A stretch of DNA of 32,530 bases, taken from an uncultured Methylococcaceae bacterium. GTDB taxonomy: Bacteria > Pseudomonadota > Gammaproteobacteria > Methylococcales > Methylococcaceae. Both the position numbers and the translations under genes were made by a program. The stretch covers positions 1-32,530 of the forward strand of contig CAIODU010000141.1 of the NCBI GenBank assembly GCA_903857165.1. Reading direction: 5' to 3'. The notes beneath the pieces were generated by a model. The model had not been told where the DNA came from, did not search any database, and saw nothing but the letters and a program-made list of their open reading frames with translations. This document shows, in pieces, positions 2,863-26,829 of this stretch. How positions within the stretch are numbered: position 1 is the stretch's first letter; each line of letters opens with the position of its first letter.

Positions 2863-4596
2863 ATGGCCGCATTACTGGACAACCAAGAACAAGCCCTACT
2901 GCGCGGTTGGATGAACCGCTTGGGTTGGCCGTTACTCGGCCAGCTTTATCTTGACGGTGCCGACACGGGCGAGACTCGCCAAAAAACGCAGGCATTGCGC
3001 CAGCGTCTGGCGTTGAAAGCCCAGCATTTAGGCTTGCCGGAACTGGCAAGCTTCTGGCTGAATGAACGCTTGGATGGCGAAACTTGGATTAAGCAAGCCG
3101 AAGCAGGTTTGACGGCACTGCTGGGCACGCCCGATCCGCTACCCTCTTTGGGGGATGGCGTCGCCCGGTGGTTTCCGCAACCCATCGCCAGCAAACTTCA
3201 AGCCCATGGCCTGGATACGCTGCAAGCCGTGGTCACATTTCGCCAACGCATGGGAAACCTTTGGTGGCAGAGTGTGCCGAAACTCGGTTCGCACTCGGCC
3301 AAAACGGTCGTGCGATTGCTTAAAATCCATGCGACTTCCTTGGGTTTGGCGGGCAACGCCTTGGCAACCCGCCCGCTGGTTCCGGCTGCGGCAAACAAGG
3401 TTAAAAATCCGGCCATGGAAAACCTATTCGACGCGCAGGCCGAGTTGAACGGGTTCAACGGCACCAATCGTGCCTCGCATGACCGCTGCCGCATACCGGC
3501 CGGTAACGACTTTGAGGCCATACACACTTGGTTGGACCTGCGCGACCACGACAGCCACACCTACCGAAACTATCGGAAGGAATCCGAACGCTTCCTGCTC
3601 TGGGCCGTCACCGAGCGTGGCAAAGCACTGTCATCGCTTGATACAGCGGATTGCAAAGACTACCGGGATTTTCTGTTCGCCCCGGCGGAGGCTTGGCTCA
3701 ATCCCAAATTCAGACCACGCTGGAGCCCTTCGTGGCGTCCCTTCAAGGGCCCGTTGCAACACCGGACGGTCAAGCACACCGAAACCATCCTGTCTTCGAT
3801 GTGCGAATGGCTGGTCAAACAACGCTATCTGGATAATAACCCGTTCGATGGCCTGCCGCCAATGCCGTCCCAAGAATTGCACAGCCTGCAAGTCGAGCAT
3901 GCTTTAGACGAAACCCAATGGCAATGGCTGTTGGAGTATTGCGCAAAGTGCGAAGCCTCCCATCCCGACGGTGAGCGGAACCGCCACTATCGCCGCCTCT
4001 GGATTGCCTTGCAGTTGGCCTACTGCACTGGGCTTCGTCTAGCCGAACTGGCCAATGCCCGCTTTGGTGACATCGCTTATAAAAGCCGTAATGACGGGCA
4101 ACACTGGTTGAGGGTGCTGGGCAAGGGAAGCAAGCGACGTGAAGTGCCGTTGCCGCCCGAGTTGGCCGACGAACTGAAGCGTTATGCCCAAGAACGCGGC
4201 ACGGTTTGGGGCGTGCCGGATTCGCCGGAACCCATCATCGGCAAATTCCGTAAAACCGCTGTGTTTGGGGAAACCGATTTTGACATGGTGGAAACGCCCT
4301 TCACAACATCAGGGCTGCACCGGGTACTGAAGGGCTTTTTTAATGAAGCCGCTGGAGCAATGAGTCAATCTGTCACGGAAGAGGATAAACGCAATGTCGA
4401 AACCTTGACCAATATGACCACGCATTGGCTGCGGCACACCCACGCATCCCATGCCTTGGGTCGCGGAGCCGCCTTAATCTCAGTCAAGGAAAACTTGGGC
4501 CATGCCAGCCTTGCAACCACCTCCCTTTACCTGCACGGCGACAAGGACCAGCGCTATGCGGAGATGGGCAAACTGTTTCGGAAGCGGACAGGATAG
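2863..4596 (+). CDS. tyrosine site-specific recombinase with DUF3701-type N-terminus
   Basis: A 577-residue tyrosine recombinase that cuts and rejoins DNA through a 3'-phosphotyrosine. The C-terminal catalytic domain shows all expected residues: Arg392 (CTGLRLAEL), Lys421/424 in GKGSKRREVPLP, His521 and Arg524 (HWLRHTH), His547 (LGHASL) and the nucleophile Tyr556 (LYLHGD). A SAM-like core-binding domain spans about 215-330. The first 165 residues form an extra helical domain containing ARWFPQPIASKLQAHGLDTL and a WWQSVPKLG segment, matching the DUF3701 'phage integrase protein' region I recall from proteobacterial recombinases. The ATG at 2863 has a weak ribosome site. No phage genes are nearby, so it is probably a lone recombinase or the remnant of a mobile element. 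TIR element A lies directly upstream. Confidence 0.9.
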   Translation: MAALLDNQEQALLRGWMNRLGWPLLGQLYLDGADTGETRQKTQALRQRLALKAQHLGLPELASFWLNERLDGETWIKQAEAGLTALLGTPDPLPSLGDGVARWFPQPIASKLQAHGLDTLQAVVTFRQRMGNLWWQSVPKLGSHSAKTVVRLLKIHATSLGLAGNALATRPLVPAAANKVKNPAMENLFDAQAELNGFNGTNRASHDRCRIPAGNDFEAIHTWLDLRDHDSHTYRNYRKESERFLLWAVTERGKALSSLDTADCKDYRDFLFAPAEAWLNPKFRPRWSPSWRPFKGPLQHRTVKHTETILSSMCEWLVKQRYLDNNPFDGLPPMPSQELHSLQVEHALDETQWQWLLEYCAKCEASHPDGERNRHYRRLWIALQLAYCTGLRLAELANARFGDIAYKSRNDGQHWLRVLGKGSKRREVPLPPELADELKRYAQERGTVWGVPDSPEPIIGKFRKTAVFGETDFDMVETPFTTSGLHRVLKGFFNEAAGAMSQSVTEEDKRNVETLTNMTTHWLRHTHASHALGRGAALISVKENLGHASLATTSLYLHGDKDQRYAEMGKLFRKRTG

Positions 4597-5867: not shown

Positions 5868-8800
5868 TCACCAGGGAGAACCCAACGCCAAGCGAAAGCC
5901 AAAATTATCGTAGCGATAGCCGGGAAGGCCCCTGAGGCGGAACGCACAGCGAACATAGCCCGAAGGATCGTACCAAGAACCGCCGCGAAACGTTCTAGCC
6001 CCCTCTCCCGGCCCGATATTGCCATGTTCCGGCACTTTATTTGCCCTTAGATTAAGGCACCATTCCCAGACATTGCCGGTCATGTCCATCACTCCTTCGG
6101 GTGTCGCACCGTTAGGGTAAACCCCAACCGGTGTCGGTGTACCTACGTTGCGGTTGAAATTCGCCCGTTCCGCTGTGGGTTTGGCATCGCCCCACGCATA
6201 GCGACGGGCGGTTTTGCCCCGCGCAGCGAATTCCCATTCCGCCTCAGTCGGTAGGCGGATCACCTTATCCTTTGCCAACTTGCCGACTCGGTGCAAATGC
6301 TCGGTCAGCCAAGCGCAATAAGCCATGGACTCAAACCAACAAACCCCCACCACTGGGCGGTTAGGATGCGCGGACTGTCCCTGCCAAAGTGCAGGTTCTT
6401 GCCATTCACCAAACTTGTCCGGCCACCAGCGCTTTTCGGTATAGCCGTCGTCGTCCATGAACACGGTGTACTCCTGCACAGTGACCGGATAACGGCCTAG
6501 CGCAAACCCGTCCAGTGTCACTTCCTGCGGGGTTTCGTCATCTTGTGCCTCCGGGTCGTAATTGGGCGCATTCCGGTCTTGTTTCTGCGCACCCATTAGA
6601 AACGTGTCACTAGGTATCGCCACCCAACGCCGCGCGTCATCCGCCAAGCGCGGGTCGCCGGCTTGGCCCAAGGCTTCGGCGGCTTCGATGCGCAGCTTAA
6701 CCGGCACGGATTCCGAGCCTTCTTTCGTGAAAATGCCCATCACCGCGTCAAGTGCCTGACGGTAGTGGATGTCGCTCGGATCATACTTGAAGGGTGACAA
6801 GTCGCGGACGATGCCGCCCAGCAAACCGACGGCGCGGGCTAGGTGAGCCAAATTGGGTTGATTGCTGGAGGAACCCCTCTCCCCAACCCCTCTCCCCGGT
6901 GGGGAGAGGGGCTTTTTGCCCCCCTCTCCAATCTCTCTCCCCGGTGGGGAGAGGGGCTTTTTACTCCCCTCTCCCGCTTGCGGGAGAGGGGCCGGGGGAG
7001 AGGGCAACAATTCATTCAACACCGCCGTGACCAAGCCATCCACTTTTTCCCGGCCTTGCTCGTACAACACCCCGCCGAGCAGTTGCCCCACCTCGCGCCA
7101 TTCGGGTTCATACAAACGCTTGGGGGTTCCTAGCAGCAGTTCCTTTTGCCGTTCTTCGTTCAACCCGCCGATGGCTCTAGCCGCCAGATATTCTTGGAAG
7201 CTGAGGTGCCAGAAGCGCACTTCGTTGCCTCGCCTGACGATGATGCCGCTGTCGAGTTCTTCCTCTTCCAAGAATTTTTCGGCTTTGGTTTGATCGCCTT
7301 GAAAAAGCCCTGCGATTTGCTCCGCCGCCCAATGGCGCGTCACCTGAATTTTGCGGCCCCCCTCGGCGTTTTGCATCTGCAAGGCCAATAGGCGCAAGAC
7401 TTCCAAACTGCGTTCCGCCCCGGCACGTCCGGGGCGCTGTTCGCGGGCGCGGGCCAGCCACAGCAGGATGGACTCGTACAACTCGGCACGTTGTTCCGGC
7501 AGGCGCTTTTCGTTCCAATGCACCACCGCCAAGGCGGTCAGCATCACCGTGTTGCGGGCGAGGCGGCGGATGTTGGGGCGGGCATTCAAGGCATGCAGCA
7601 ATTCTTGACGATGGTCTTGCGCCGCCTTGGCGTCGCTGGGGTGCAGGGCGCGGCTCCACCGGTCGAGGAAAGTCTCCACCGCATGATCGTTCAAAGCTTC
7701 GATATGGCTAGGCTCGAAATTCGGCAATACGGTGCGGTCTTCGTAGCCAGAAGGCCGGGAAGTGACAAGGATGGGGCATTCCTTCCAGGTCGCGGCGACT
7801 GCCTCCAGCAAGTGGGTGGCAAATTCGCGGGCTTTGCGATCCGGGGCTTCGTCCAAGCCGTCGAATAACAACAGACATTCGCCCGCATTCAGCCTTTCCT
7901 TGAACCACTCCGCATCCAAGCCCCATTCATGGCTTTCCGACTGGGCGGCGAGAAAATGCACCAGCCATTGCGGGTCTTTAGGCATGGGCGGACCCTGCTT
8001 GTGTTCGCGCACCGTGTAGACATATTCCAACCATTCCGCTATCGAGACAAAAACCGGGATCAGCGGACGGGAAAGCCCCAACAAATCCTTGGCGGCATGG
8101 TCGCTGACTCCCAGCCGGTCCCCCGCCAACAGGTGGACGATCCAGCGCAGAAAGGTCGTCTTGCCGGAGCCTGGGTCGCCCACCACCACCCGGCGCGGAT
8201 GGGCGAGGGTGTGTTTCAGCTTGCCGCCGCCAGCGGTGTCCAGTTCGATATACAGGTCTTCAATCGGGAAACGGTGCGCCCTGCCACTGCCGACATGCAA
8301 GCCGCGTATGTCGATGTAGGCGCAGAATTCATACCAATATCCCAAATAGCGCTCGGGGTTGGCCTGGGCTTTGGCAAGTGCCTGAGCTTCGCCGGCAAAG
8401 TTCGGATGGTCGGTAAGCCAGTCTTTCAGCGCGGATTCGACCTTGCGCTCTAACTCCTCGGGCGTTTGGAAGGTATTGCGGATGCGGTTTTGCGTCAGCC
8501 ATGTTTTGAAATCTTGTAAGGCGGCGGTGTTGCGCTTTACTTCTTTGTACAGTGTGCTAATTTCATCTGGTGGCTTATCTTCCATCGTGGCTTGGGTCAT
8601 ACGATACGCTTCCTTTTTATCTACAGGCCATGCCACCTCATCATCAACTACAAAAGCCAGCAACTCTTTTGGTATTTGTCCATCTTTAGTTCGTTCACAT
8701 TCCAACCAAGTGATGCTCTTGTCGCCCGCCTGGCCCTCCGGCACCCACCCATAACGATGGGCGACAATAACCACAGTCAGGTGCGTCTCGTCCACCCGCG

Positions 8801-8975
8801 TCATGCATTCGGCTAAAGGCTTGTTGTCTTTTGCCGACCAGTCTTCGCTCATGATTGGCAAAAAGCCAGCCCGGATGGCGGCAGCCTTGGCTTTTTCGCG
8901 GTATTCTTTTAGATCGGCTACCGTGGAGGATATAAAGACTTTGGGAGCGCCGGGCATGTGTTTGGAATTCATCAT
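5868..8975 (-). CDS. DUF4062-NACHT NTPase with C-terminal FGE-sulfatase (C-type-lectin-like) domain
   Basis: A 1035-residue STAND-type protein. Residues 10-110 are DUF4062, a TIR/SEFIR-like fold (KVFISSTVADLKEYREKAKA, VVIVAHRYGWVPE). Residues 255-480 are a NACHT NTPase with Walker A GDPGSGKTT (266-274), Walker B LLLFDGLDE (368-376), a sensor (LVTSRPSGY) and, further on, the typical FWHLSFQEYLAARAIGG (588-604). Residues 657-705 are a low-complexity Pro/Gly-rich insertion derived from DNA repeats. A short HEAT-like stretch (about 760-777) precedes the FGE-sulfatase/C-type-lectin-like domain (784-1031): WVAIPSDTFLMG, RLPTEAEWEFAARG, DMTGNVWEWC, RGGSW...GFRLA. The layout suggests NLR-like sensing, with the C-terminal domain as the recognition surface and DUF4062 as the signalling end; this is inference. 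No strong ribosome site precedes ATG 8975, and Met7 is an alternative start. It is a single gene with no obvious operon partner. Confidence 0.9.
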   Translation of the reverse strand: MMNSKHMPGAPKVFISSTVADLKEYREKAKAAAIRAGFLPIMSEDWSAKDNKPLAECMTRVDETHLTVVIVAHRYGWVPEGQAGDKSITWLECERTKDGQIPKELLAFVVDDEVAWPVDKKEAYRMTQATMEDKPPDEISTLYKEVKRNTAALQDFKTWLTQNRIRNTFQTPEELERKVESALKDWLTDHPNFAGEAQALAKAQANPERYLGYWYEFCAYIDIRGLHVGSGRAHRFPIEDLYIELDTAGGGKLKHTLAHPRRVVVGDPGSGKTTFLRWIVHLLAGDRLGVSDHAAKDLLGLSRPLIPVFVSIAEWLEYVYTVREHKQGPPMPKDPQWLVHFLAAQSESHEWGLDAEWFKERLNAGECLLLFDGLDEAPDRKAREFATHLLEAVAATWKECPILVTSRPSGYEDRTVLPNFEPSHIEALNDHAVETFLDRWSRALHPSDAKAAQDHRQELLHALNARPNIRRLARNTVMLTALAVVHWNEKRLPEQRAELYESILLWLARAREQRPGRAGAERSLEVLRLLALQMQNAEGGRKIQVTRHWAAEQIAGLFQGDQTKAEKFLEEEELDSGIIVRRGNEVRFWHLSFQEYLAARAIGGLNEERQKELLLGTPKRLYEPEWREVGQLLGGVLYEQGREKVDGLVTAVLNELLPSPPAPLPQAGEGSKKPLSPPGREIGEGGKKPLSPPGRGVGERGSSSNQPNLAHLARAVGLLGGIVRDLSPFKYDPSDIHYRQALDAVMGIFTKEGSESVPVKLRIEAAEALGQAGDPRLADDARRWVAIPSDTFLMGAQKQDRNAPNYDPEAQDDETPQEVTLDGFALGRYPVTVQEYTVFMDDDGYTEKRWWPDKFGEWQEPALWQGQSAHPNRPVVGVCWFESMAYCAWLTEHLHRVGKLAKDKVIRLPTEAEWEFAARGKTARRYAWGDAKPTAERANFNRNVGTPTPVGVYPNGATPEGVMDMTGNVWEWCLNLRANKVPEHGNIGPGEGARTFRGGSWYDPSGYVRCAFRLRGLPGYRYDNFGFRLALGSPW
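5883..5987 (-). other. variable-region-like 3' segment of the FGE domain (DGR-type VR candidate)
   Basis: This is the coding segment for residues 997-1031, from RGGSW to GFRLA, 15 bases before the stop. In diversity-generating retroelement targets the same place in the C-type-lectin fold holds a hypervariable patch, where adenine-rich AAY codons of a template are randomised. Here the non-scaffold positions are Y, D, G, Y, V, C, F, L, G, L, G, Y, Y, D, N, many with codons of the NNC/NNT form, while the scaffold R, A, R and GFR is retained. No reverse transcriptase and no adenine-rich template copy is visible in the window. Confidence 0.4.
6861..7007 (-). repeat. palindromic repeat cluster inserted in frame in the NACHT gene
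   Basis: Two copies of the hairpin CTCTCCCCGGTGGGGAGAGG with GCTTTTT behind each, plus a related CTCCCGCTTGCGGGAG hairpin, in about 145 bases. The reading frame passes through without a stop and encodes a Pro/Gly/Lys-rich stretch (PAPLPQAGEG, KKPLSPPGR twice). Such GGGGAGAGG repeats normally sit between genes. Flanking protein sequence is continuous NACHT-arm and HEAT-like sequence, so the insertion was tolerated in a linker. Confidence 0.8.
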
Positions 8976-17133: not shown

Positions 17134-19773
17134 CTATGCCCCGGCAACCAATCCACGACGGGAAGCCATCCAAGCGACCCATCCGCCAATCACCAGCCAA
17201 ATCGTAGAGGGTTCGGGAATCGGTGAGTTGTTGTTGGGGAAACCAATGAAAGAAAGCTGCACATGGTCGCCCCATAGGGCCAGATTGGCGGATAAGCCAG
17301 GGGCGAAACCGAAGAGGTTCACCCGGTCAAAACTGCCTGACACACTGCCAAATAATAGGAAATCAAAGCTATCGCCCAAGTTGGGCCGGTAGCCGTTCAC
17401 CGCATACAAATTCAAGCTTCCGCCTAAAATGGCCTGACCCGTGACAATAAACTTGTCGTAATTATTCATCCCGGCCAATTCAATGTTCAAGTTGCTAGTT
17501 GAAGTCAAAACCAAATTGCCGTCCAAGGTCAAAGTGCCGGGGCTGTTGCCGGGGTTGATTTGGCCCTCGTTGGTCAATGTCCCGCCATTCAGCGCCACCG
17601 TACCCGTGCCGGTGATGATGCCATTCGCGGTGTTGTCGATGCTGCCGGCCATCAATACCGCCCCGGTATCGGTATGGACGATGCCATCATTACGGAAATT
17701 GGCGGCATGTCCTCGCAAATCAAGCGTACCGGTTTGCACATCCACCGTGCCAGTATTGCTAAAGTGTGCGTCAATATAGGAATAACCCGTCCCGCCGGAT
17801 TTGCGCACCGTGCCGGCATTGTCAACACTGCCTTCGCCATAGATACTGTTATTGTCCCGCTTGAAATCCAATACATTGCGATTTTCCAGCACCCGCCCGG
17901 ACTCAAGTCCCAGATAGTATTCAACCGAGCTTGCGCCGTTGAGGATCGTCCTGCCCGCCCCTGTCATTTTTCCATCATAGAATGCCGCCGTTCCAGCAAT
18001 GGCATAGTCATCCGATGAATTCAGCGAACCGCCGCTCAAGGCAATATTCTGCAAACTCGCACTAGCCAGCAGGGTATGGGTTCCGCCAGTGAACTCCACC
18101 ACCCCATCACCGCCGAAGCTGCCGCTGTGCGTCCCGCCACCTGCCAGCCGCAATGCCCCGGTTTGCACTTCGACACTGCCATAATTGTTGAACTGGGTAT
18201 AAATGCTCGACGAGTTGGTTCCTTCCGATTTGACTATCGTGCCATGATTGTCGAAACTGCCCCCGCCTTCGGCTACATAAATATTATTGTAATCGCCTTT
18301 AAAGTCCATGATGTTTTGATTGTCCAGCACACGGCCGCCGCCAAGGCCTAGGCCATAGATGACCGTGCTAGGCCCATTCAACACGGTCTTGCCCGCGCCG
18401 GTCATGATGCCGCCATAATAGGTTGAACTGCCTTGTATGGAATAATCCACGGACGAGGCAAGCGTCCCTCCCAACCCGATATTATGCAAACTTACACCCT
18501 CTAATAAGGTGTGGGTTCCCCCTGAAAACTCCACCACCCCCTCGCCGCCGAAGCTGCCGCTGTGTGTGCCGTCCGCTGCCAAACGGATGATTCCTCCCGC
18601 TGCCACGTCAACCGCGCCACTGTTGTTGAACGTCGCGCCAATGTCTGAAACGCCCGAGCCGGAGGTTTTGGTCACCGTTCCGAAGTTATTGAAAGTGCCG
18701 GTGGCATCAGAACTGCTAACATTGCTGTAAGCACCTTGAAAGTCAAAGGTGTTGCCTTTGCTCAGTTCCAATGCCCGCCCTCCCGTGAGATCCAGGCCAT
18801 AAATGTCGGTGACAGGCCCTTTCAATGTGGTTGTCCCTGCACCAGACATCCTGCCACCATAATAGGTGGAGGTTCCGGCTATGCTGTAATCCACCGAGGG
18901 CGAACTCAATGTCCCCGCCAGCCCGATGTTATTAAAGCTCACACCTGATTGTAATAGGTTAGTAGTGCCGCCGTTAAATTCCACCACCCCTGGCCCGCCG
19001 AAGCTGCCGCTGTGCGTACCGCCGCCGGACAAGCGCAAAGCCCCGCTTTGCACGTCCACGCTGCCGCTATTATTGAATGTGGCATCAATGGTGGAGACGA
19101 CATTCCCGCCGGATTTACTGACCGTGCCGTGGTTGTCGAAACGCCCCGTGCCGTCGTTGGAATAGATGCTGTTGTAGTCGTATAAAAAGTTTAAATTGCT
19201 TTTATTATCCAGCACCCGCCCGCCGTCTAGCCCGATACCCCAAAGAACAGTGCCAGCGCCATTGAGTGTGGTCGTTCCCGTCCCGCTCATTGTGCCGCCA
19301 TCCAATGTGGCGGTGCCATTGACGGTCAAGCCACCACTGCCCGCCAGTTGTCCTCCATTTTGAACAAAGGCGGCATTTAACGTGGAATTGTTTTGCAGGG
19401 TTAGTGTTCCGCCGCTAAGCCTCAAACCGGCTTGGTTGTCGGCACTGATGGAGTGGATTACATTATCGCCGGAGTCATGGTTCAATTCGGCGGCAGTCAG
19501 GGTGTCGGTGACGGTCCCGCCGCTTTCATTGAGGTATTGGTAAGTCTGCGGCAGCGTGACCTTAAGCACATCGGTTTGACCGGGCAGTTGCCCGCCGCCC
19601 CACTGAGCCGCTTGGCTCCAAAGCCCGGTGTTTTGCAGCGCATAAGGGGGATTCGAGCCAGTGGGAAACTGGAAGGAATAATCCATGTCTTGTGCGAAGA
19701 CTGATACCGGACAAAATGCAGTGGCGATGGCGCTCGCCAATACAGCACGGCGGAGAAATGGGCGATTTTTCAT
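17134..19773 (-). CDS. repetitive PEP-CTERM exported surface protein
   Basis: 879 residues from ATG 19773. The N-terminus (MKNRPFLRRAVLASAIATAF, then CPVSVFAQ) is a signal peptide. The C-terminus has the PEP-CTERM sorting signal: PIPEPST, a hydrophobic helix, then the basic ASRR. An exosortase would process it at the membrane. The body is Gly/Ser/Thr/Asn-rich β-helix sequence in at least three repeats of about 145-150 residues; the GTHSGSFGG landmark recurs near 18115, 18550 and 19000. Autotransporter-like motifs (GTGTVALNGGTLTNEGQINP, GNSPGTLTLDGNL) precede the final β-domain. The open frame extends back to 20085, but that part overlaps the divergent Hsp90-like gene and has no signal peptide, so I reject it. 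Probably a cell-surface or matrix protein. Confidence 0.9.
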   Translation of the reverse strand: MKNRPFLRRAVLASAIATAFCPVSVFAQDMDYSFQFPTGSNPPYALQNTGLWSQAAQWGGGQLPGQTDVLKVTLPQTYQYLNESGGTVTDTLTAAELNHDSGDNVIHSISADNQAGLRLSGGTLTLQNNSTLNAAFVQNGGQLAGSGGLTVNGTATLDGGTMSGTGTTTLNGAGTVLWGIGLDGGRVLDNKSNLNFLYDYNSIYSNDGTGRFDNHGTVSKSGGNVVSTIDATFNNSGSVDVQSGALRLSGGGTHSGSFGGPGVVEFNGGTTNLLQSGVSFNNIGLAGTLSSPSVDYSIAGTSTYYGGRMSGAGTTTLKGPVTDIYGLDLTGGRALELSKGNTFDFQGAYSNVSSSDATGTFNNFGTVTKTSGSGVSDIGATFNNSGAVDVAAGGIIRLAADGTHSGSFGGEGVVEFSGGTHTLLEGVSLHNIGLGGTLASSVDYSIQGSSTYYGGIMTGAGKTVLNGPSTVIYGLGLGGGRVLDNQNIMDFKGDYNNIYVAEGGGSFDNHGTIVKSEGTNSSSIYTQFNNYGSVEVQTGALRLAGGGTHSGSFGGDGVVEFTGGTHTLLASASLQNIALSGGSLNSSDDYAIAGTAAFYDGKMTGAGRTILNGASSVEYYLGLESGRVLENRNVLDFKRDNNSIYGEGSVDNAGTVRKSGGTGYSYIDAHFSNTGTVDVQTGTLDLRGHAANFRNDGIVHTDTGAVLMAGSIDNTANGIITGTGTVALNGGTLTNEGQINPGNSPGTLTLDGNLVLTSTSNLNIELAGMNNYDKFIVTGQAILGGSLNLYAVNGYRPNLGDSFDFLLFGSVSGSFDRVNLFGFAPGLSANLALWGDHVQLSFIGFPNNNSPIPEPSTIWLVIGGWVAWMASRRGLVAGA

Positions 19774-19847
19774 TATTTTTGCCTCGTAGGGGAAGCCAAT
19801 GGATTTTATGTTGAAGGACAAGCTTGACACAATTTGAGATTGGAACG

Positions 19848-19867
19848 CAAGGGTAATATTACCCTTG
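19848..19867. promoter_or_regulatory. perfect 20-bp palindrome in a divergent intergenic region
   Basis: CAAGGGTAAT and its exact reverse complement lie between the PEP-CTERM gene and the Hsp90-like gene, 20 bases after a TTGACA hexamer (19824-19829). Its symmetry and lack of a loop fit a dimeric regulator's operator better than a hairpin. The TTGACA has no well-spaced -10 partner, so the promoter assignment is open. Confidence 0.4.
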
Positions 19868-19971
19868 GAATGCTTCATGAAACTTGCCATTGCTGTGCAA
19901 GGGCTGGTCTCCACTAGTAAGGGTTTTAGGTTACTATGGCTCACTGATTTTAATCCCGGTTGGAACAGACC

Positions 19972-21252
19972 ATGCCACAACAACACCAAATCCAAATCAA
20001 TCTGCCCGGCTTGCTGCGCATGTTGGGCGAAAACATCTACGCCGAACCGGATGTGGCGATCCGCGAAATGATCCAGAACGCCCACGACGCCTGCATCATC
20101 CGTGGCACGGAAGACCGCTCATACCAAAATCCACTCATCCACGTCAGTTTTGACAAGAAGGCACAAACCATCGTCATTGCCGACAATGGCATGGGCATGA
20201 CCGAAGATGAATTGCACAAGAACCTCTCCACCATCGGCGAGAGTTTCACCCGCATCCAGCGCGAGCAACTGCGAGAAAAAGATGCCCACGAGGCGGCATT
20301 ACTGATCGGTCAATTTGGCATCGGCATGTTATCGGCCTTTTCCATTTCAAGACAAGTCGAAATCATTACTCGTTCTAGCCAAGGCGAGGGAGGTTTCCGT
20401 TGGGTGTGTGCGGGTGACATTCATTATTCCGTGGAAGCCAACACCAAACCCGATCCCGGCACTAGCGTCATCCTGCATCTGCTCGATAGCAAGATAGCCT
20501 TGCTGGACGAGGAGCGATTAAGACTAGCCATCAAAAAATCTGCCGATTTCCTCTCCATCCCGATTTATCTCAACGGCAACCAAGCCAATGCCTGTACCCC
20601 GCCTTGGGAATCTAAACACACCGACCTGTCCGAATACATTCAAGCGCGTTGGGGCTTGATTCCGCTCGGCGTCATTCCGTTCAACTCGGAGGCTATGACT
20701 TCCGACCAGACTCTCCCCAACGTGTCTGGCTTGTTGTTCATCCCGATGATTCCCTTCGAGTTGACCCGTCAGTTTGGCGAAGTGGATATCTATATTTCGC
20801 GCATGTTCATCAAGGCCAATGACAAGGAACTGTTGCCGCGCTGGGCGAGTTTCGTCAAAGGGGTCATCAACACGCCAGACCTCACACCCACGCTGAGCCG
20901 GGGCGAGATCATCGTCGATACTGCCTACCAGCAAATCCGCGCCTTACTCGGTCAGATCATCATCGACTATTTGGATTGGCTGCAAACTCAAGACCCGGAT
21001 AGGCTCACAATGTTGGTGGGGTCGTACAACAACACCATCAAAGCCCACGCTTTGGAAGATGATGATTTCTTTGACCGCATCGGCGATCTGGTTCGGGTCA
21101 ACACCGATACCGGGCTGATCCCCATGCGGGATTATTTGGTGAAATCCAAAGGCAAAATCTACTACTTTGCCGAACGCGGCTCCGGCACTCAACACAAGGT
21201 GTTGTTTGCCCATAAAGGCTTGCCAGTGATTGATGCCAGTTGGGGTGTATAA
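19972..21252 (+). CDS. Hsp90-family (GHKL) ATPase lacking the usual C-terminal domain
   Basis: 426 residues from ATG 19972 (GGAA at 19962-19965; a TTG at 19960 is also in frame). The Bergerat ATP fold is intact: the N-box EMIQNAHDA (E32, N36), DNGMGM (71-76), the lid motif GQFGIGM (113-119) and a GTSVILHL strand. A middle domain resembling HtpG-like proteins follows (RMFIKANDKELLPRWASFVK, then GVINTPDL). The protein stops after GLPVIDASWGV. Hsp90 family proteins of this type are, from memory, about 600 residues, so the dimerisation domain seems to be missing. The stop coincides with a sharp drop to AT-rich sequence, suggesting truncation by island insertion. A naturally short form cannot be excluded. 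Confidence 0.75.
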   Translation: MPQQHQIQINLPGLLRMLGENIYAEPDVAIREMIQNAHDACIIRGTEDRSYQNPLIHVSFDKKAQTIVIADNGMGMTEDELHKNLSTIGESFTRIQREQLREKDAHEAALLIGQFGIGMLSAFSISRQVEIITRSSQGEGGFRWVCAGDIHYSVEANTKPDPGTSVILHLLDSKIALLDEERLRLAIKKSADFLSIPIYLNGNQANACTPPWESKHTDLSEYIQARWGLIPLGVIPFNSEAMTSDQTLPNVSGLLFIPMIPFELTRQFGEVDIYISRMFIKANDKELLPRWASFVKGVINTPDLTPTLSRGEIIVDTAYQQIRALLGQIIIDYLDWLQTQDPDRLTMLVGSYNNTIKAHALEDDDFFDRIGDLVRVNTDTGLIPMRDYLVKSKGKIYYFAERGSGTQHKVLFAHKGLPVIDASWGV

Positions 21253-21299
21253 TGAAAAGTTATGTTTCATAAGCATCATTTCACACAATAAGAAATTTT

Positions 21300-21647
21300 A
21301 TGCCAAAATACTTTGAAGGATCGATAGATTTGCCCTCAGATGTAATTTCGCTTGAATATGATTCAGTATCTGAAGAATCTCTTCGTGCGATATTATCTAG
21401 TTGCAGCGGACGTGTGGCTCTGTCTATCAAGCTACCTGGGTTACCATCTTCAAGTTTAGGTTACATATTTTTTGTCGAAACTAAAGATGATTTGCATACA
21501 CTTACTGACATTAAAAATATCGTTCATTTCAGATCTGTAAGCACGGGTTATCTTTCAAGAATAATTTGTCATTCTTCGGGGATACTGTATGATTCAGATG
21601 TGCAGTCTGAGTTCCATCGTATAAGAAACGAGATCGGAATTAACTAA
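21300..21647 (+). CDS. hypothetical protein of the AT-rich island
   Basis: 115 residues with no family I recognise. It is a mixed α/β sequence without signal peptide or membrane segment: an acidic N-terminus (SEESLRAILSS), a central hydrophobic strand (GYIFFVET) and a basic C-terminus. It lies 47 bases after the Hsp90-like stop. Its TAA overlaps the ATG of the nuclease gene by one base (TAATG at 21645-21649), so the two are almost certainly co-translated. Candidate roles are nuclease partner, immunity or regulatory subunit; this rests on coupling only. The ribosome site (AAGAAA) is weak. Confidence 0.65.
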   Translation: MPKYFEGSIDLPSDVISLEYDSVSEESLRAILSSCSGRVALSIKLPGLPSSSLGYIFFVETKDDLHTLTDIKNIVHFRSVSTGYLSRIICHSSGILYDSDVQSEFHRIRNEIGIN

Positions 21648-22705
21648 TGCCATATAGTAGAAAAGAAGATCTGCAATCTCTGATATTAGAAGCGGTGTCG
21701 AGAATAAATAGCGGGGTTTCTAAAACCCTTACCGCAAGAAAAACATCCGAGGTTCCTCCACAGGATACACGACATTTAACAGATACACGTACAAGAGTTT
21801 CTACATTGCTCGAATATTCTCTTTCCTATGAATTAAATCATTTGTTCATTGAAAAAGAAATTAGTTATTCTATCTCAAATGTCTTATGGAATGTATTTCC
21901 AGACTTAGTTGTAAGAGACAGTGCTTTTAATAATGTTATTGGGTTAGAGGTAAAAGCACTTCACTCTGCTGCTGAAGAAAAATCAGCCAACTTGCATACG
22001 CCAATTTCCTTGATAAGGAAAGACAAAGACTTCATTGTAATTCTTGCTTGGGGATGGAATCGTCTTCAGAAGGATGGCTTAGATATTACATACCCACACA
22101 TACACGATTTTTGTATCTTTGATGCTTGGCTTATTGCAAAGATGAGGGACAGTACATGGCTGATTAATAATAACGACCGAATAAAAGGAATTGATATAAG
22201 TACGCCTATTATAAATTCTGATGGGGATGGTTATAAAGCAGAAGAGGGCAATCTAGGGAAGCTAATGAGAATACATATGAGCGATCAGACATCTGAGAAT
22301 ATGCCTTCATATGAATCGATGAAGAGAGAAGCAGATGCTTATGCGATTTTCAAAGATAAAATTCTCCTTTTAGGTTTAATTGAAACAATTAAAGACATCA
22401 ATAGCAATTTATCTGGCTCTCTAAAACTTATAGATGAGCCAATAAAACCATCAACCATTGCTGCGCTGATTGGGATTACGGAAATACCCGGTAAAAATAT
22501 TTTCTACGTTACTGGTAGCATAAGAGCAAATATCCATTGGAGCCAAGTAATCGAAGAATTACAAACTGGTGATATAATTGTTCAACTGGGCAATAAGCTA
22601 GAATGGAAGATTTTAAAATGGTCAGACGAATGGTTAGTTGTAGATTCTGGAAAGAAACCAGATATCGAGTTGAAAAGGATATGTAGTTCCATATTTGCCA
22701 AATGA
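21647..22705 (+). CDS. PD-(D/E)XK nuclease, putative restriction endonuclease
   Basis: 352 residues. The segment VFPDLVVRDSAFNNVIGLEV followed by KAL contains a PD...ExK nuclease core: Asp86, then Glu101-x-Lys103, with an upstream helical Glu62 (LEYSLSYELNHLF). This is the metal-binding arrangement of restriction-like nucleases. The C-terminal half (NIFYVTGSIRANIHWSQVIE and the following strand-rich stretch) is unassigned and may recognise DNA. No close named family comes to mind. It is translationally coupled to the 115-residue gene and ends 5 bases from the end of the convergent methyltransferase gene. This facing arrangement and the shared AT-rich composition make them probable partners in a restriction-modification system. 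Confidence 0.7.
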   Translation: MPYSRKEDLQSLILEAVSRINSGVSKTLTARKTSEVPPQDTRHLTDTRTRVSTLLEYSLSYELNHLFIEKEISYSISNVLWNVFPDLVVRDSAFNNVIGLEVKALHSAAEEKSANLHTPISLIRKDKDFIVILAWGWNRLQKDGLDITYPHIHDFCIFDAWLIAKMRDSTWLINNNDRIKGIDISTPIINSDGDGYKAEEGNLGKLMRIHMSDQTSENMPSYESMKREADAYAIFKDKILLLGLIETIKDINSNLSGSLKLIDEPIKPSTIAALIGITEIPGKNIFYVTGSIRANIHWSQVIEELQTGDIIVQLGNKLEWKILKWSDEWLVVDSGKKPDIELKRICSSIFAK

Positions 22706-22710
22706 TATAT

Positions 22711-24804
22711 TTAGAGAAGAAGTTCGTTTACTAAGTTGTTTGTAGAGTTTATCTGGTGATCAACCGCTTGTCGCAACAATTCATCAGATTTATTTTTTAA
22801 ATCGTCTGATTTTTTAATGGTAGCGATATAGTTTGTCATAGATTTTGATTTATTTGAATCAGAAGGTATGGGAATCATTATTGACCTTAAGTCCTTTATC
22901 GAGACCCTAGGTCTTCCTATACCCGTTATCAAATGAACAATCTGCCCATATACGAAATCCGATCTCAAAATTGCGCTAAGCATTCTTTCATTAATAATTT
23001 CTTTATTTGGTCTAAATACAACACATTCAGAAGAACAATAACCGTTATCATCATGGGTTACAGCGACACATTTTCTCAGGTTTGGCCTCATTTTTGAAAA
23101 CAATACGTCACCTTTTTTGTACTTTTTAACTGTACTTTTAATCGAATTTGTTGGAGTGTGTATCTGGCTATATATTTCGCTGTTAGATTCAATATTAGCA
23201 AGCCCTGTGTATAAAATTGTCTGGTCAGGGATTTCTTTGGCAGGAAGCAAGGGTTCGTTAATTTCTAAACATAGTTCTGTAAGTTGTACCAATTTATTTC
23301 TATGTTTCTTGAGTGTGTTCCTCACAATCTCCCTAGAGTAGTGATGGAATGCAAAATCTAATCGAAATGAAGGCATCCCATCACCTTGAAATGTTTCATA
23401 AATGTTTGATACATAACATGAATTTGAAGGATGAATTTTGTGGCCTTTTATGTGACGATTCCATTGTTCTTGTATGGCGACAAGATCATTTTTTAATACC
23501 TCTTGTCCAGCATTATCATAAATATAATCTTCGTCGCCATTATTCTTTTTTCCAACATTTTCAGCCAGCGCAAAAAAAGTATTAAAATTTGTGTCTTGGT
23601 TACTAACTTTTCTCATTATCAGTATTGATGATTCAACAGAGGCATAAGGCATAAATGTTGTAGCAGGAAGGCTTACTACTGCCAGAAGTTGAGATTGATG
23701 GGTAATTAATTTTCTTACATCTTCATTGGATACGTGGTTTAGTACACCATCATCAATAATGATTGCCAAATATCCGCCAACTTTTAGAAATTGTAAGCAA
23801 CGCTCGATAAAAAGTACGCCACGCCTCCTAGATGATTTGCCCACACCTAATTCATACTGAAGAAGACCTTTCGAATCAGAATAGTCACTTCCAAACGGTG
23901 GATTAGTGATAATCGCATCAAATGTATTTTTGTATTTATTGGCATCCATTCCTAACGTACCACCATTAGGCAGATAAATAGATTTATAAATTTTGCATCC
24001 ATGCATCTCTAAATTTATTCCGCTCACCCAAGCAAGCCGTTCATCAATTTCAAATGCGGTAAAGTCATTAAATTCTGAGCAATTCTTTACCAAGTTAATT
24101 AGAAATCCACCAGTCCCAGATGCTGGATCACAAATTGAGCCAGAAGTTAATGTACAAATTAAATTTGACATAAAGCTAACAACTGGACTCGGTGTGAAAA
24201 ACTGTTGATTATCCCCCTTTTCAAAAATATCTTTAATCATTTCTTCATAAATCAGACCCCTTACGTCACCGGAAATGTTATTAAGTCCATACCTAGACAA
24301 ATAATCAAAAACAGAAAATATGCACTGATTATTCAGGTTAATTTTTTCATAATTGGCTGGTGGTGTAACTGGTAAATGTGATAGAAATTCTTTGTATAAG
24401 ACTCTGACCTTCTTTGCAAATACATCTACGTCTTGCATGAAGGTGTTAAGTTCACCGTTGAAATTAACATGAAGAAGAAACAATTTAGTCAATTCATCAA
24501 ATCGCTCTATAATGCTACTTCTTCCATCGTAGTCTCGAACAATACGATGGGTTTTAGCGATCAAACGCTTAAGATCGGCAACCGTGCTTAACTCAAATGC
24601 ATCTTTTACATTGTTGGAGCGAGGTGCAACTTTTGGTTTGACGGTTCTTTTTATGGCATTAAGCTCATCTTCTGAGAAAAGCCTATAGTTACTACCTGGA
24701 TCTCTCACGCAATCTATCTTCCCTGCTTTATCCCAGTTTCGAAGTGTTTGGGGGGTTAAACCAAGATATGTTGCTGCTTCATCAACGGTGTAAAATTTGC
24801 TCAT
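22711..24804 (-). CDS. MerR-HTH / N6-adenine methyltransferase / type I-like specificity domain fusion
   Basis: 697 residues with three parts. Residues 1-50 are a MerR-type helix-turn-helix (YTVDEAATYLGLTPQTLRNW, then DKAGKI...YRLFSEDEL). Residues 150-440 are a HsdM-like N6-adenine methyltransferase with QFFTP (201-205), the SAM-binding motif I DPASGTGGFL (226-235) and the catalytic motif IV NPPF (301-304). Residues 470-697 resemble one target-recognition domain and helical spacer of a type I HsdS subunit (KKGDVLFSKMRPNLRKCVAV, TGIGRPRVSIKDLRSIMIPI). Methylation and target recognition are thus in one chain, and the HTH may add autoregulation or DNA targeting. With only one recognition domain it may dimerise to read a bipartite or symmetric site. 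No HsdR-type translocase is present; the convergent PD-(D/E)XK gene is the likely nuclease. Confidence 0.88.
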   Translation of the reverse strand: MSKFYTVDEAATYLGLTPQTLRNWDKAGKIDCVRDPGSNYRLFSEDELNAIKRTVKPKVAPRSNNVKDAFELSTVADLKRLIAKTHRIVRDYDGRSSIIERFDELTKLFLLHVNFNGELNTFMQDVDVFAKKVRVLYKEFLSHLPVTPPANYEKINLNNQCIFSVFDYLSRYGLNNISGDVRGLIYEEMIKDIFEKGDNQQFFTPSPVVSFMSNLICTLTSGSICDPASGTGGFLINLVKNCSEFNDFTAFEIDERLAWVSGINLEMHGCKIYKSIYLPNGGTLGMDANKYKNTFDAIITNPPFGSDYSDSKGLLQYELGVGKSSRRRGVLFIERCLQFLKVGGYLAIIIDDGVLNHVSNEDVRKLITHQSQLLAVVSLPATTFMPYASVESSILIMRKVSNQDTNFNTFFALAENVGKKNNGDEDYIYDNAGQEVLKNDLVAIQEQWNRHIKGHKIHPSNSCYVSNIYETFQGDGMPSFRLDFAFHHYSREIVRNTLKKHRNKLVQLTELCLEINEPLLPAKEIPDQTILYTGLANIESNSEIYSQIHTPTNSIKSTVKKYKKGDVLFSKMRPNLRKCVAVTHDDNGYCSSECVVFRPNKEIINERMLSAILRSDFVYGQIVHLITGIGRPRVSIKDLRSIMIPIPSDSNKSKSMTNYIATIKKSDDLKNKSDELLRQAVDHQINSTNNLVNELLL

Positions 24805-24826
24805 GGCCCATCCTTATAAAAAACGC

Positions 24827-24870
24827 GACGATATTGTCGTCATATTTACAAGGATAAAGTCTTCTGTCAA
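24827..24870 (-). promoter_or_regulatory. promoter and start-site dyad of the methyltransferase fusion gene
   Basis: On the minus strand TTGACA (24865-24870) and AAATAT (24842-24847) are spaced by 17 bases, a good σ70 layout. Directly downstream, over the expected transcription start, is the dyad GACGA-TATTG-TCGTC (24827-24841). It is a plausible binding site for the protein's own MerR-like domain. The start codon follows 22 bases later. Confidence 0.5.
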
Positions 24871-25022
24871 GTGGTAATTTCTACAAATTTGAATTTGGAG
24901 GACCATAGGAAGCGCTGAGGAATGAAACGCATCAATCGCGAATGATGCACCCTCTTTGTCGGCACATCTATTTTCTTGCTACCACGCGCCGCGCCTATCG
25001 TAATGCACACAGTCTTGAGGGT
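24871..25022. other. unassigned stretch between the island and the vapBC duplication
   Basis: No convincing gene, repeat or RNA is visible. Base composition changes from AT-rich (to about 24900) to balanced, so the right edge of the island probably lies here. No matching direct repeat of the left edge near 21253 was seen. Confidence 0.4.
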
Positions 25023-25151
25023 TCAAAAGCCCAAACGACGAATACGACTTACGCCCAAACCCAGACATTGCGCTGCCTTTCCCTGCGGATGCCGGACCAG
25101 ATCGGACACGATATTGGTGTCGGGCAGGTGGGTGTAACTGTCCATGCTCAC
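25023..25151 (-). pseudogene. truncated vapC (5' remnant, copy 1)
   Basis: A GTG start overlaps the vapB stop exactly as in the intact copy. It encodes VSMDSYTHLPDTNIVSDLVR followed by HPQGKAAQCL, the same as the first 30 residues of the full VapC at 26159-26572 apart from a Leu-to-Pro change before the catalytic Asp (LLDTN to LPDTN) and one Gln-to-Lys. It then leaves the homologous sequence and stops after 42 residues. The rest of the PIN domain is gone. Confidence 0.85.
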
Positions 25152-25408
25152 AAATCTATATCATCTTCTGCGGGCTGATCTTCGATTTCAGGGAAATCTT
25201 CGTCCAAGGGTTCCAGAGTCGCCAAGATTGCGAGCAAGGATGGTTTTTTTAGGGGTTCTATAATCAATCGCTCCCCTACTTTGTGAATCATGGCCTCTTC
25301 TCCGGGCAATTCAAACTCACGCGGAATGCGTAACGCTTGGTTACGGCCATTACGAAATAGGCGGACGGGGCGTCCATCTTGTTTGTTGACGGGGTTTTCT
25401 GTATACAT
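25148..25408 (-). CDS. vapB: VapB-type antitoxin, solitary copy 1
   Basis: An 86-residue antitoxin. Its AbrB/SpoVT-like N-terminus (GRPVRLFRNGRNQALRIPRE, then FELPGEEA) binds the operator, and the acidic C-terminus (EPLDEDFPEIEDQPAEDD) wraps the toxin. It differs from the second copy at only three residues (Asp11, Val44, Asp85 here; Gly, Glu, Ala there). The frame is intact but its toxin gene is truncated, so it is a spare antitoxin that could still bind the neighbouring VapC and both operators. Confidence 0.88.
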   Translation of the reverse strand: MYTENPVNKQDGRPVRLFRNGRNQALRIPREFELPGEEAMIHKVGERLIIEPLKKPSLLAILATLEPLDEDFPEIEDQPAEDDIDL

Positions 25409-25470: not shown

Positions 25471-25496
25471 TGCAGCCATTTTAATAAAGGACCGTA

Positions 25497-25535
25497 GGGC
25501 GCAATAGCGGCTCCCGCAGCGTATTGCGCCGAATG
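25497..25535. repeat. palindromic repeat (GGCGCAATA/TATTGCGCC)
   Basis: Arms GGCGCAATA (25498-25506) and TATTGCGCC (25522-25530). It belongs to the same dispersed family as the repeat at 2484-2528 and sits between vapB copy 1 and the small membrane-protein genes. Confidence 0.6.
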
Positions 25536-25630
25536 GATAAAAAGAGCAAAAGCTTGAACGGGCAACTGCTTTATTGTTGCCCGAAATTACCGCTGTTCGC
25601 ATATAATAGGCTTTTGGGAGGAAGAGACAA

Positions 25631-26029: not shown

Positions 26030-26038
26030 CTCAACGCC

Positions 26039-26135
26039 GGACGGGATTTGTAATCCCGTCCGCAATGTTTTGTGCTTTACCCCTGACATCAAGGGTGATA
26101 CGAAACGGAAGCGGCGGGGTTACAAACCCCGCCGC
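26039..26135. repeat. pair of perfect hairpins
   Basis: GGACGGGATT-tgt-AATCCCGTCC (26039-26061) and GCGGCGGGGTT-aca-AACCCCGCCGC (26111-26135). Both have a three-base loop and similar logic. They lie where the DUF4160 remnant ends and just beyond the 3' end of vapC. No T-run follows, so they look like a dispersed repeat rather than terminators. Confidence 0.7.
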
Positions 26136-26158
26136 GCTTCGGCATTGTCTCTTTCGGA

Positions 26159-26572
26159 TTAATCCAACCAATTCTCAACCCGTAAACCCGGCACTCGATT
26201 AAATTCCCGCAGATTGTCCGTGACTAAGATTGCATCCAACACCAACGCATGGGCGGCGATCAGAAAATCATTGTAGCCTATGGGTTGTCCTATGCGTTGA
26301 AGTATGGCTCTGATGCGTCCGTAGTGGAAATCTGCCGGGGTTGCATAGGGCAATATATCAAGCCCAGCCAGTACCTTTTCCAATTGCAAGCCCAGTTTCG
26401 CAGAGCCTTTCTTTTCCACACCATAGCGCAACTCGCTGACCACAATCAGGCTGGTGCAGACATGGGTTGGGTCAACCTGAGCCAGACATTGCGCCGCCTG
26501 TCCTTGTGGATGCCGGACCAGATCGGACACGATGTTGGTGTCGAGCAGGTGGGTGTAACTGTCCATGCTCAC
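26159..26572 (-). CDS. vapC: VapC-type PIN-domain RNase toxin
   Basis: 137 residues from a GTG overlapping the vapB stop (GTGA); ATG 26566 is the alternative start. PIN-domain acidic residues are complete: Asp in LLDTNIVSDLV, Glu in VSELRYGVE, Asp in GYNDFLIAAHA and Asp in LVTDN. VapC toxins cut tRNA or rRNA; the target here is unknown. The protein most resembles the FitB-like/VapC group with a C-terminal REFNRVPGLRVENW. Co-transcribed with vapB copy 2, which precedes it. Confidence 0.93.
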   Translation of the reverse strand: MSMDSYTHLLDTNIVSDLVRHPQGQAAQCLAQVDPTHVCTSLIVVSELRYGVEKKGSAKLGLQLEKVLAGLDILPYATPADFHYGRIRAILQRIGQPIGYNDFLIAAHALVLDAILVTDNLREFNRVPGLRVENWLD

Positions 26573-26829
26573 AACGCTATATCATCTTCTGCGGGCTGAT
26601 CTTCGATTTCAGGGAAATCTTCATCCAGGGGTTCCAGAGTCGCCAAGATTGCGAGCAAGGATGGTTTTTTTAGGGGTTCTATAATCAATCGCTCACCTTC
26701 CTTGTGAATCATGGCCTCTTCTCCGGGCAATTCAAACTCACGTGGAATGCGTAACGCTTGGTTACGGCCATTACGGAATAAGCGGACGGGGCGTCCACCT
26801 TGTTTGTTGACGGGGTTTTCTGTATACAT
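26569..26829 (-). CDS. vapB: VapB-type antitoxin, copy 2
   Basis: 86 residues, the functional partner of the intact VapC, overlapping its start by four bases. It has the AbrB/SpoVT-like DNA-binding N-terminus and acidic toxin-binding C-terminus, and is nearly identical to copy 1. Translational coupling through GTGA should keep toxin output tied to antitoxin. Confidence 0.93.
   Translation of the reverse strand: MYTENPVNKQGGRPVRLFRNGRNQALRIPREFELPGEEAMIHKEGERLIIEPLKKPSLLAILATLEPLDEDFPEIEDQPAEDDIAL

Follow-up and report, generated by a model that had tools for sequence, protein, structure and literature searches.

The island at positions 21253-24900 of a 32,530-nucleotide stretch of DNA from an uncultured Methylococcaceae bacterium (contig CAIODU010000141.1; the whole stretch is referred to below as the window) appears to belong to the DrdI kind of Type II restriction-modification systems and to include a conserved and apparently undescribed third protein. 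The ORF listing shows three open reading frames (ORFs), two of them facing the third. They encode a protein of 115 amino acids (aa) (21300-21647, plus strand), a 352-aa PD-(D/E)XK nuclease of the R.DrdI family (21647-22705, plus strand) and a 697-aa protein of the M.DrdI family (22711-24804, minus strand), which joins a MerR helix-turn-helix (HTH) domain to a gamma-class N6-adenine methylase and to one target recognition domain like those of type I systems. Base 21647 is common to the TAA stop codon of the 115-aa ORF and the ATG of the nuclease ORF (TAATG). These ORFs, their coordinates and their coupling, first described from the letters alone in what we call the sequence-only reading, are all borne out by the listing.

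We consider it likely that the island was acquired horizontally as a three-gene system of this kind, and extend the same degree of confidence to the joint explanation of which this is a part and which comprises a dimeric methylase, a nuclease, self-repression by the HTH domain and a 115-aa partner. It would appear that the genes encoding a laboratory restriction enzyme have an overlooked companion that has been retained in distantly related bacteria. If the small protein restrains or completes the nuclease, this has a bearing on how a restriction system can establish itself in a new host and leave it alive, for which transcription control is the usual answer. Should it be a brake, it would represent a protein-level antidote besides the methylase and the transcriptional C proteins, and a MerR-type HTH on a gamma-class N6-adenine methylase would add a self-control circuit of the type described for cytosine-5 methylases.

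Relationship of the island to the DrdI system

The window nuclease matches the REase_II model PDLC03462 of PADLOC with an expectation value (E) of 4.9e-32, as do all 16 nucleases in our alignment. The best match to this model (E 3.4e-285) is taken to be the 396-aa nuclease of pDrdI, since the model has 396 positions and the protein 396 aa. pDrdI (NZ_CP031163.1; our locus L002) is a plasmid of Deinococcus wulumuqiensis NEB 479, the strain from which DrdI was obtained, and its 'hypothetical protein' is the sole relative that three nuclease queries found among 72,556 plasmid records. Window and pDrdI nucleases are 37% identical over 211 columns, and the methylase encoded at the same place on pDrdI is 32% identical to that of the window over 684 columns, a homology that runs on through the target domain. 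In the methylome of pDrdI, M.DrdI (GACN6GTC), an inactive type I methylase (M.DrdORFCP) and a cytosine methylase have been assigned (PMC6430315). The plasmid encodes four proteins that match N6_Mtase, namely a typical hsdM product beside a short hsdS, two very large proteins and the relative of the window methylase. Because the other three are hsdM or very large proteins, we identify this relative by elimination as M.DrdI and its neighbour as R.DrdI.

In PMC3874165, M.DrdI is listed as '2 gammaM~[GAC]', and Table 3 of that paper describes M.DrdI, M.XmnI and M.XcmI as homodimers in which a methylase is fused to one target domain and the nuclease is separate. The architecture seen in the window, in which a single type I-like target recognition domain is joined to a gamma-class N6-adenine methylase and a separate nuclease of the pDrdI family is encoded alongside, is therefore a known organisation. 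The sequence-only reading had held that the set fits no known class, a claim that falls in the face of the pDrdI-family nuclease and of the class of fused methylases described there. Its view of a restriction-modification island with the named domains is upheld by the Pfam and PADLOC matches.

The nuclease consists of a core (residues 1 to about 207) and a C-terminal domain (about 222-352). The putative active-site residues D86, E101 and K103, already picked out as D86...E101-x-K103 from the window sequence, are invariant in the 16 aligned nucleases, window included, and so are E111, N202, G204, K205 and R208 (L022, with an ORF of 162 codons, was left out of the nuclease alignments). A structure model built from 15 sequences, the pDrdI (L002) rows being omitted from all structure inputs, has a predicted local distance difference test score (pLDDT) of 81 and places E101 and K103 within the strand 96-106. 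In VIA-align the modelled core matches SwaI (Z 10.3, 3.9 A, 137 residues), HincII (Z 9.3, 3.0 A, 125 residues) and EcoRV (Z 8.3, 4.3 A, 142 residues), values that lie somewhat above the background of the tool at Z 7 to 8, and in Foldseek it matches EcoRV with E 5.4e-4 at a template modelling (TM) score of just 0.27. Together, the Z values and the PD...ExK residues support an EcoRV/HincII-like fold for the predicted core. A resemblance of the C-terminal domain to Holliday-junction resolvases (Z 6.4, 2.8 A, 90 residues) stayed below the trusted level and was set aside; the alignment contains no conserved ExK pair in this domain, and a dead second nuclease domain is a thought only.

In the 697-aa protein Pfam finds MerR/HTH_17 at residues 4-53, N6_Mtase at 179-425 and a single Methylase_S stretch at 550-672, in agreement with the domains that had been read from the translation as a MerR HTH, an HsdM-like methylase and one HsdS-like domain. 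Methylase_S passes a threshold of E 0.001 in 7 of the 18 family members, the window protein among them. The target domains of this protein and of M.DrdI are 41% identical and the catalytic domains 38%; against 17 other methylases of the family the values are 40-53% and 38-57%, respectively. The similar degree of conservation of target and catalytic domains argues that the half-site, which is GAC for M.DrdI, is common to the family. Target domains at least 40% alike tend to have the same specificity. The site of the window system is most likely GAC N6 GTC, the spacing being assumed from M.DrdI. The whole window contains three GACN6GTC sites (4.5 expected by chance), one of them within the palindrome before the methylase gene discussed below.

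The guanine plus cytosine content (G+C) of the left flank is 0.52-0.55 and drops to 0.34-0.36 in the island, where the sequence-only reading had noted a sharp fall in composition; to the right it rises to about 0.46 and then to at least 0.53. The left edge can now be drawn more sharply, because it lies within an HSP90-like ATPase gene (19960-21252) which ends at codon 430 and whose similarity to two same-genus genomes breaks off at base 21245; the junction (21245-21252) includes the stop codon of the cut gene. In these two genomes (L037, L038) the gene is intact, encoding about 790-800 aa, and the proteins are 91-93% identical to that of the window. The missing 3' part was not found in the remaining assembly, which gave just three weak partial matches of 27-34%, and the island therefore seems to have taken the place of the 3' part of the gene instead of simply splitting it.

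A small protein that accompanies the long-form nuclease

To survey related loci, genome_contigs was scanned with methylase patterns only (DNQQFFT and [ED]IDER[LM]AW). The scan returned 16 loci, with record titles naming Cereibacter, Albidovulum, Undibacterium, Pseudoduganella, Lysobacteraceae, Verrucomicrobia, Binatia, Treponema, Coriobacteriaceae, Latescibacteria, Dehalococcoidia, Poribacteria (four loci) and an uncultured bacterium, titles from which we presume the phyla. The small protein was detected by phmmer and an iterated profile in nine of the 16 loci and, with the window and pDrdI added, in 11 of 18. The members outside the first profile were reached with E 5.5e-19 (L011), 4e-18 (L017), 3.3e-14 (L021), 7.1e-10 (L018) and 2.5e-8 (pDrdI); the small proteins of the window and of pDrdI gave no direct alignment with each other and are linked through intermediates.

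The nuclease is present in 17 loci (15 from the survey, the window and pDrdI) and comes in two forms, a long one of 352-396 aa in 12 loci and a short one in five (L020, L022-L025; ORFs of 162-277 codons), which ends ahead of the C-terminal domain. No small gene was found in any of the five short-nuclease loci, and the contig of the one long-nuclease locus without it (L014) stops 75 bases past the nuclease ORF. The gene order varies: in nine loci the small gene and the nuclease gene lie tail to tail, their ends between 32 bases overlapping and 9 bases apart; in the window the small gene precedes the nuclease gene on the same strand and runs towards the methylase gene; on pDrdI it is upstream as well and the methylase gene is directed away. 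Since the same genes recur next to each other in distantly related bacteria, the three-gene set exceeds chance. This answers the prediction of the sequence-only reading that the three families should be found together in other genomes: the nuclease adjoins the methylase in 15 of the 16 surveyed loci, and the small protein accompanies the long nuclease in 11 of 12. A separate observation is locus L012, where a family methylase (6001-8130) stands without a recognisable nuclease or small gene alongside; there, five neighbouring ORFs gave no PADLOC match and two small methylase-adjacent ORFs were not tested.

Searches that did not start from the methylase patterns returned little. As a lone query the window nuclease found no relative in genome_contigs; viral contigs yielded none with patterns derived from two aligned nuclease sequences, or with the methylase alignment; phage records contained no relative of the nuclease, and plasmid records no match to either the window or the L011 small protein. 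In a genome panel the nuclease was matched in 1 of 151 genomes, and the nuclease model and the small-protein alignment each in 1 of 398 (probably the same genomes for both), in every case only in the window's own genome. On each of two viral contigs (L050, L051) a short-form relative of the nuclease is encoded alone at 5962-6648 (E 2.8e-55), with D-x-K replacing E-x-K; no family methylase was found on these contigs, which are possibly fragments.

The 115-aa protein itself matches no meaningful family in Pfam (best E 0.023, below the cut-off), PADLOC or NCBIfam, and a search of the 11 members against PHROGs gave two nameless families only (E 0.018 and 0.038, one member each). Searches of an open-access library and of the family libraries gave no description of it. 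It had been singled out from the start as an island member resembling no restriction subunit, and these null results, together with its association with the loci, agree with that. Between L015 and L026 the small proteins are 52% identical, the nucleases 73% and the methylases 76%. The small genes of this pair differ by 46, 30 and 77 at codon positions 1, 2 and 3, with 0.45 nonsynonymous and 2.2 synonymous substitutions per site (dN and dS; dS was not computable for the nuclease and methylase, so that the ratio for the small gene stands alone). The small gene is a real gene under purifying selection, and it evolves faster than its two neighbours.

Distance matrices from the 11 complete loci connect the small protein with the nuclease core (r 0.81) more than with the methylase (r 0.62), and after controlling for the methylase the partial correlation with the core is 0.68, whereas after controlling for the core that with the methylase is 0.09; such partial correlations carry no significance test of their own. 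An AlphaFold2 model of the small protein from 10 sequences (pLDDT 86, predicted TM score 0.79) shows a strand, a helix, four strands and two helices. Because the best Foldseek match has E 0.1 and the best VIA-align match Z 3.8, no fold family was assigned or rejected. A YTH (m6A reader) fold headed the Foldseek list and was dismissed as meaningless at E 0.1 and a TM score of about 0.26. Y55, H91 and G94 are invariant in the 11 proteins. From the pattern of co-occurrence and co-variation we infer for the 115-aa protein a role as dedicated nuclease partner, either a brake or a subunit.

Proposed mechanism and alternative explanations

MerR/HTH_17 is found on 16 of the 18 family methylases, the window protein among them and M.DrdI and L021 being the exceptions, so that most of the family has the N-terminal HTH known from autorepression of the M.SsoII type. 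Directly before the window methylase start lies a 46-bp inverted repeat (24810-24855; 23-nucleotide arms, 74% complementary), a candidate operator of the fused HTH, whose dyad score was reached by none of 150 shuffles. At p<=0.03 (150 shuffles for each locus, uncorrected), an inverted repeat occurs in 9 of the 16 HTH loci and in neither of the two non-HTH loci. Of 13 non-redundant HTH loci, moreover, 9 have AACCTT/AAGGTT in the last 90 bp ahead of the methylase, as compared to 0.98 expected (L022, L024 and L025 were left out of this count as near-duplicates of L023). The DrdI site GACN6GTC (24827-24838) sits at the centre of the window palindrome. Both self-repression by the HTH of a methylase and control through a methylated promoter site are known in other systems (PMC3874152). 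The fused MerR HTH may repress the methylase's own promoter, and the methylase is probably self-regulating.

How would such a system work? The 697-aa protein would act as a dimer to which either chain contributes a methylase and a target domain, so that adenine would be methylated in the two halves of an interrupted palindrome, with GAC N6 GTC the most likely site. The EcoRV/HincII-like 352-aa nuclease would cut this site when unmethylated, as judged from homology and fold. The fused MerR HTH would bind the inverted repeat over a putative methylase promoter and limit synthesis, and the 115-aa protein would bind the long-form nuclease and restrain or license it during methylation of the host DNA. 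More specifically, the 115-aa family may be an immunity-like brake that holds the long nuclease until methylation is complete, with the methylase controlled by its own MerR domain, a proposal that we put forward tentatively.

Several observations weigh against this explanation or parts of it. The naming of R.DrdI and M.DrdI on pDrdI rests on elimination. On this plasmid the small gene and the nuclease gene have an IS4-family transposase gene (L002, 6407-7390) between them. The contrast between long and short nucleases rests on about two lineages, because four of the five short-nuclease loci belong to related Poribacteria. Moreover, the small protein tracks the C-terminal domain of the nuclease less (r 0.65, partial 0.37) than the core, which lends no support to this domain as its seat, an idea to which the long/short split had hinted. 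Its predicted fold hints at neither inhibitor nor subunit, and its net charge, negative in 7 of 11 members, lies between -12 and +5, which leaves a general role as DNA mimic unsupported. As to the promoter, 7 of the 16 HTH loci have no significant repeat, and four of the nine that do are from related Poribacteria; at least 1 of 200 shuffles likewise had its best 6-mer in nine loci, and the 5-mer AACCT, found in 11 of 13, was surpassed by shuffles (top 12). The window itself has ATCCTT/AAGGAT instead of AACCTT, no sigma-70-like site was called before its methylase by the promoter scan, and a terminator-like hairpin with a T run lies in its palindrome. GACN6GTC was not found upstream of 16 of the 18 methylases (300 bp searched; 76 bp in L024), the site of L011 being at -206, and a conserved promoter site was accordingly dropped as proof of specificity.

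The alternative to a brake that we rate as doubtful, without dismissing it, is that the 115-aa protein is a subunit needed by the long nuclease for cutting, in other words half of a two-chain enzyme. The tight link to long nucleases and the core-correlated distances fit this as well as they fit a brake, and the translational coupling in the window speaks in its favour. However, a small gene on the opposite strand and tail to tail with the nuclease gene in 9 of 11 loci, and a transposase gene between the two on pDrdI, are unusual for a subunit in fixed ratio, and the small protein has changed more quickly than the nuclease (identities of 52% and 73%, as given above for L015 and L026). A role as transcription regulator is improbable: the small third genes of Type II systems commonly encode C proteins (PMC3874152), but no HTH family is among the matches of the 11 members, the predicted fold is alpha/beta, and a regulatory HTH is already present on the methylase. 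It is more improbable still that the gene is a passenger with no part in restriction. Its absence from the surroundings of short nucleases would suit this reading; yet it has been kept beside 11 of 12 long nucleases in three gene orders and under purifying selection, and, apart from these loci, a search of 398 genomes from the phylum did not find it.

We regard it as rather unlikely that the palindrome acts as a hairpin for attenuation or termination, or as a GACN6GTC site controlled by methylation, rather than as a MerR-type operator. The stem-loop with its T run and the central GACN6GTC are in line with such functions, and promoter methylation is known to control some systems (PMC3874152). 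Then again, inverted repeats and AACCTT-like boxes recur before methylases that bear an HTH and were not seen before the two that lack it, and GACN6GTC is not conserved at this position in relatives. Least probable of all is a derivative of type I or MADS that uses a motor or further partners encoded elsewhere. The methylase does match the MAD2 model of MADS at 135.8 bits, but the curated cut-off is 720 bits and the nuclease belongs to the pDrdI family. Classical type I systems encode an HsdS with two target domains and an HsdR motor together with the methylase; in the window only one Methylase_S stretch is present, no HsdR was found among the neighbouring genes, to which the examination was confined, and according to Pfam these neighbours are the HSP90-like fragment, a PIN toxin gene and a DEAH helicase with DUF3418.

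Neighbouring features and comparison with known systems

In the intact HSP90-like relatives the terminal domain is weakly similar to nucleoside deoxyribosyltransferases (E 0.004, under the Pfam cut-off). To the right of the island, an ORF without Pfam match (25148-25408), presumably an antitoxin by its looks, precedes the PIN-domain toxin gene (26159-26572). The stretch 25063-25253 is duplicated at 26484-26674, one piece of L038 matching both copies, and short repeats at about 24898-24969, 25486-25559 and 26031-26145, which recur on many contigs of the genome and the genus, are perhaps small mobile repeats. Elsewhere the window encodes an HNH nuclease (50-871), a recombinase of the phage-integrase family with DUF3701 (2863-4596), a 1035-aa DUF4062-NACHT-FGE-sulfatase protein of unusual STAND-like architecture (5868-8975, minus strand) and a long, repetitive protein that looks secreted from its translation (17134-20085, minus strand), whose end we take to resemble a PEP-CTERM sorting signal.

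The closest known counterpart of the island is the system of pDrdI, with which it shares a homologous nuclease, a homologous methylase-target domain fusion and a small protein homologous through intermediates. It differs in that the window methylase carries a MerR HTH, which M.DrdI lacks, in the size of the small protein (115 aa as opposed to 151 aa in pDrdI, where it is annotated as hypothetical) and in gene order, including the IS4 transposase gene of the plasmid. With M.DrdI, M.XmnI and M.XcmI as a class, the window methylase has in common one methylase and one type I-like target domain per chain, an interrupted palindrome as predicted site and the Type II organisation; the passages of PMC3874165 that were covered mention neither an N-terminal HTH nor a third protein. 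Different from systems of the Type IIG/BcgI-like kind, the window nuclease is a separate ORF unfused to the methylase. The C-protein-controlled Type II systems (PMC3874152) likewise have three genes with a small third one, whereas the third protein of the window is predicted to be alpha/beta and matches no HTH family. Finally, the window methylase resembles the autorepressing HTH methylases, such as M.SsoII, in combining an N-terminal HTH with a dyad before its own gene (PMC3874152; PMC3978073 for M.SsoII). M.SsoII is a cytosine-5 methylase, whereas the window system carries a MerR-type HTH on a gamma-class N6-adenine methylase.

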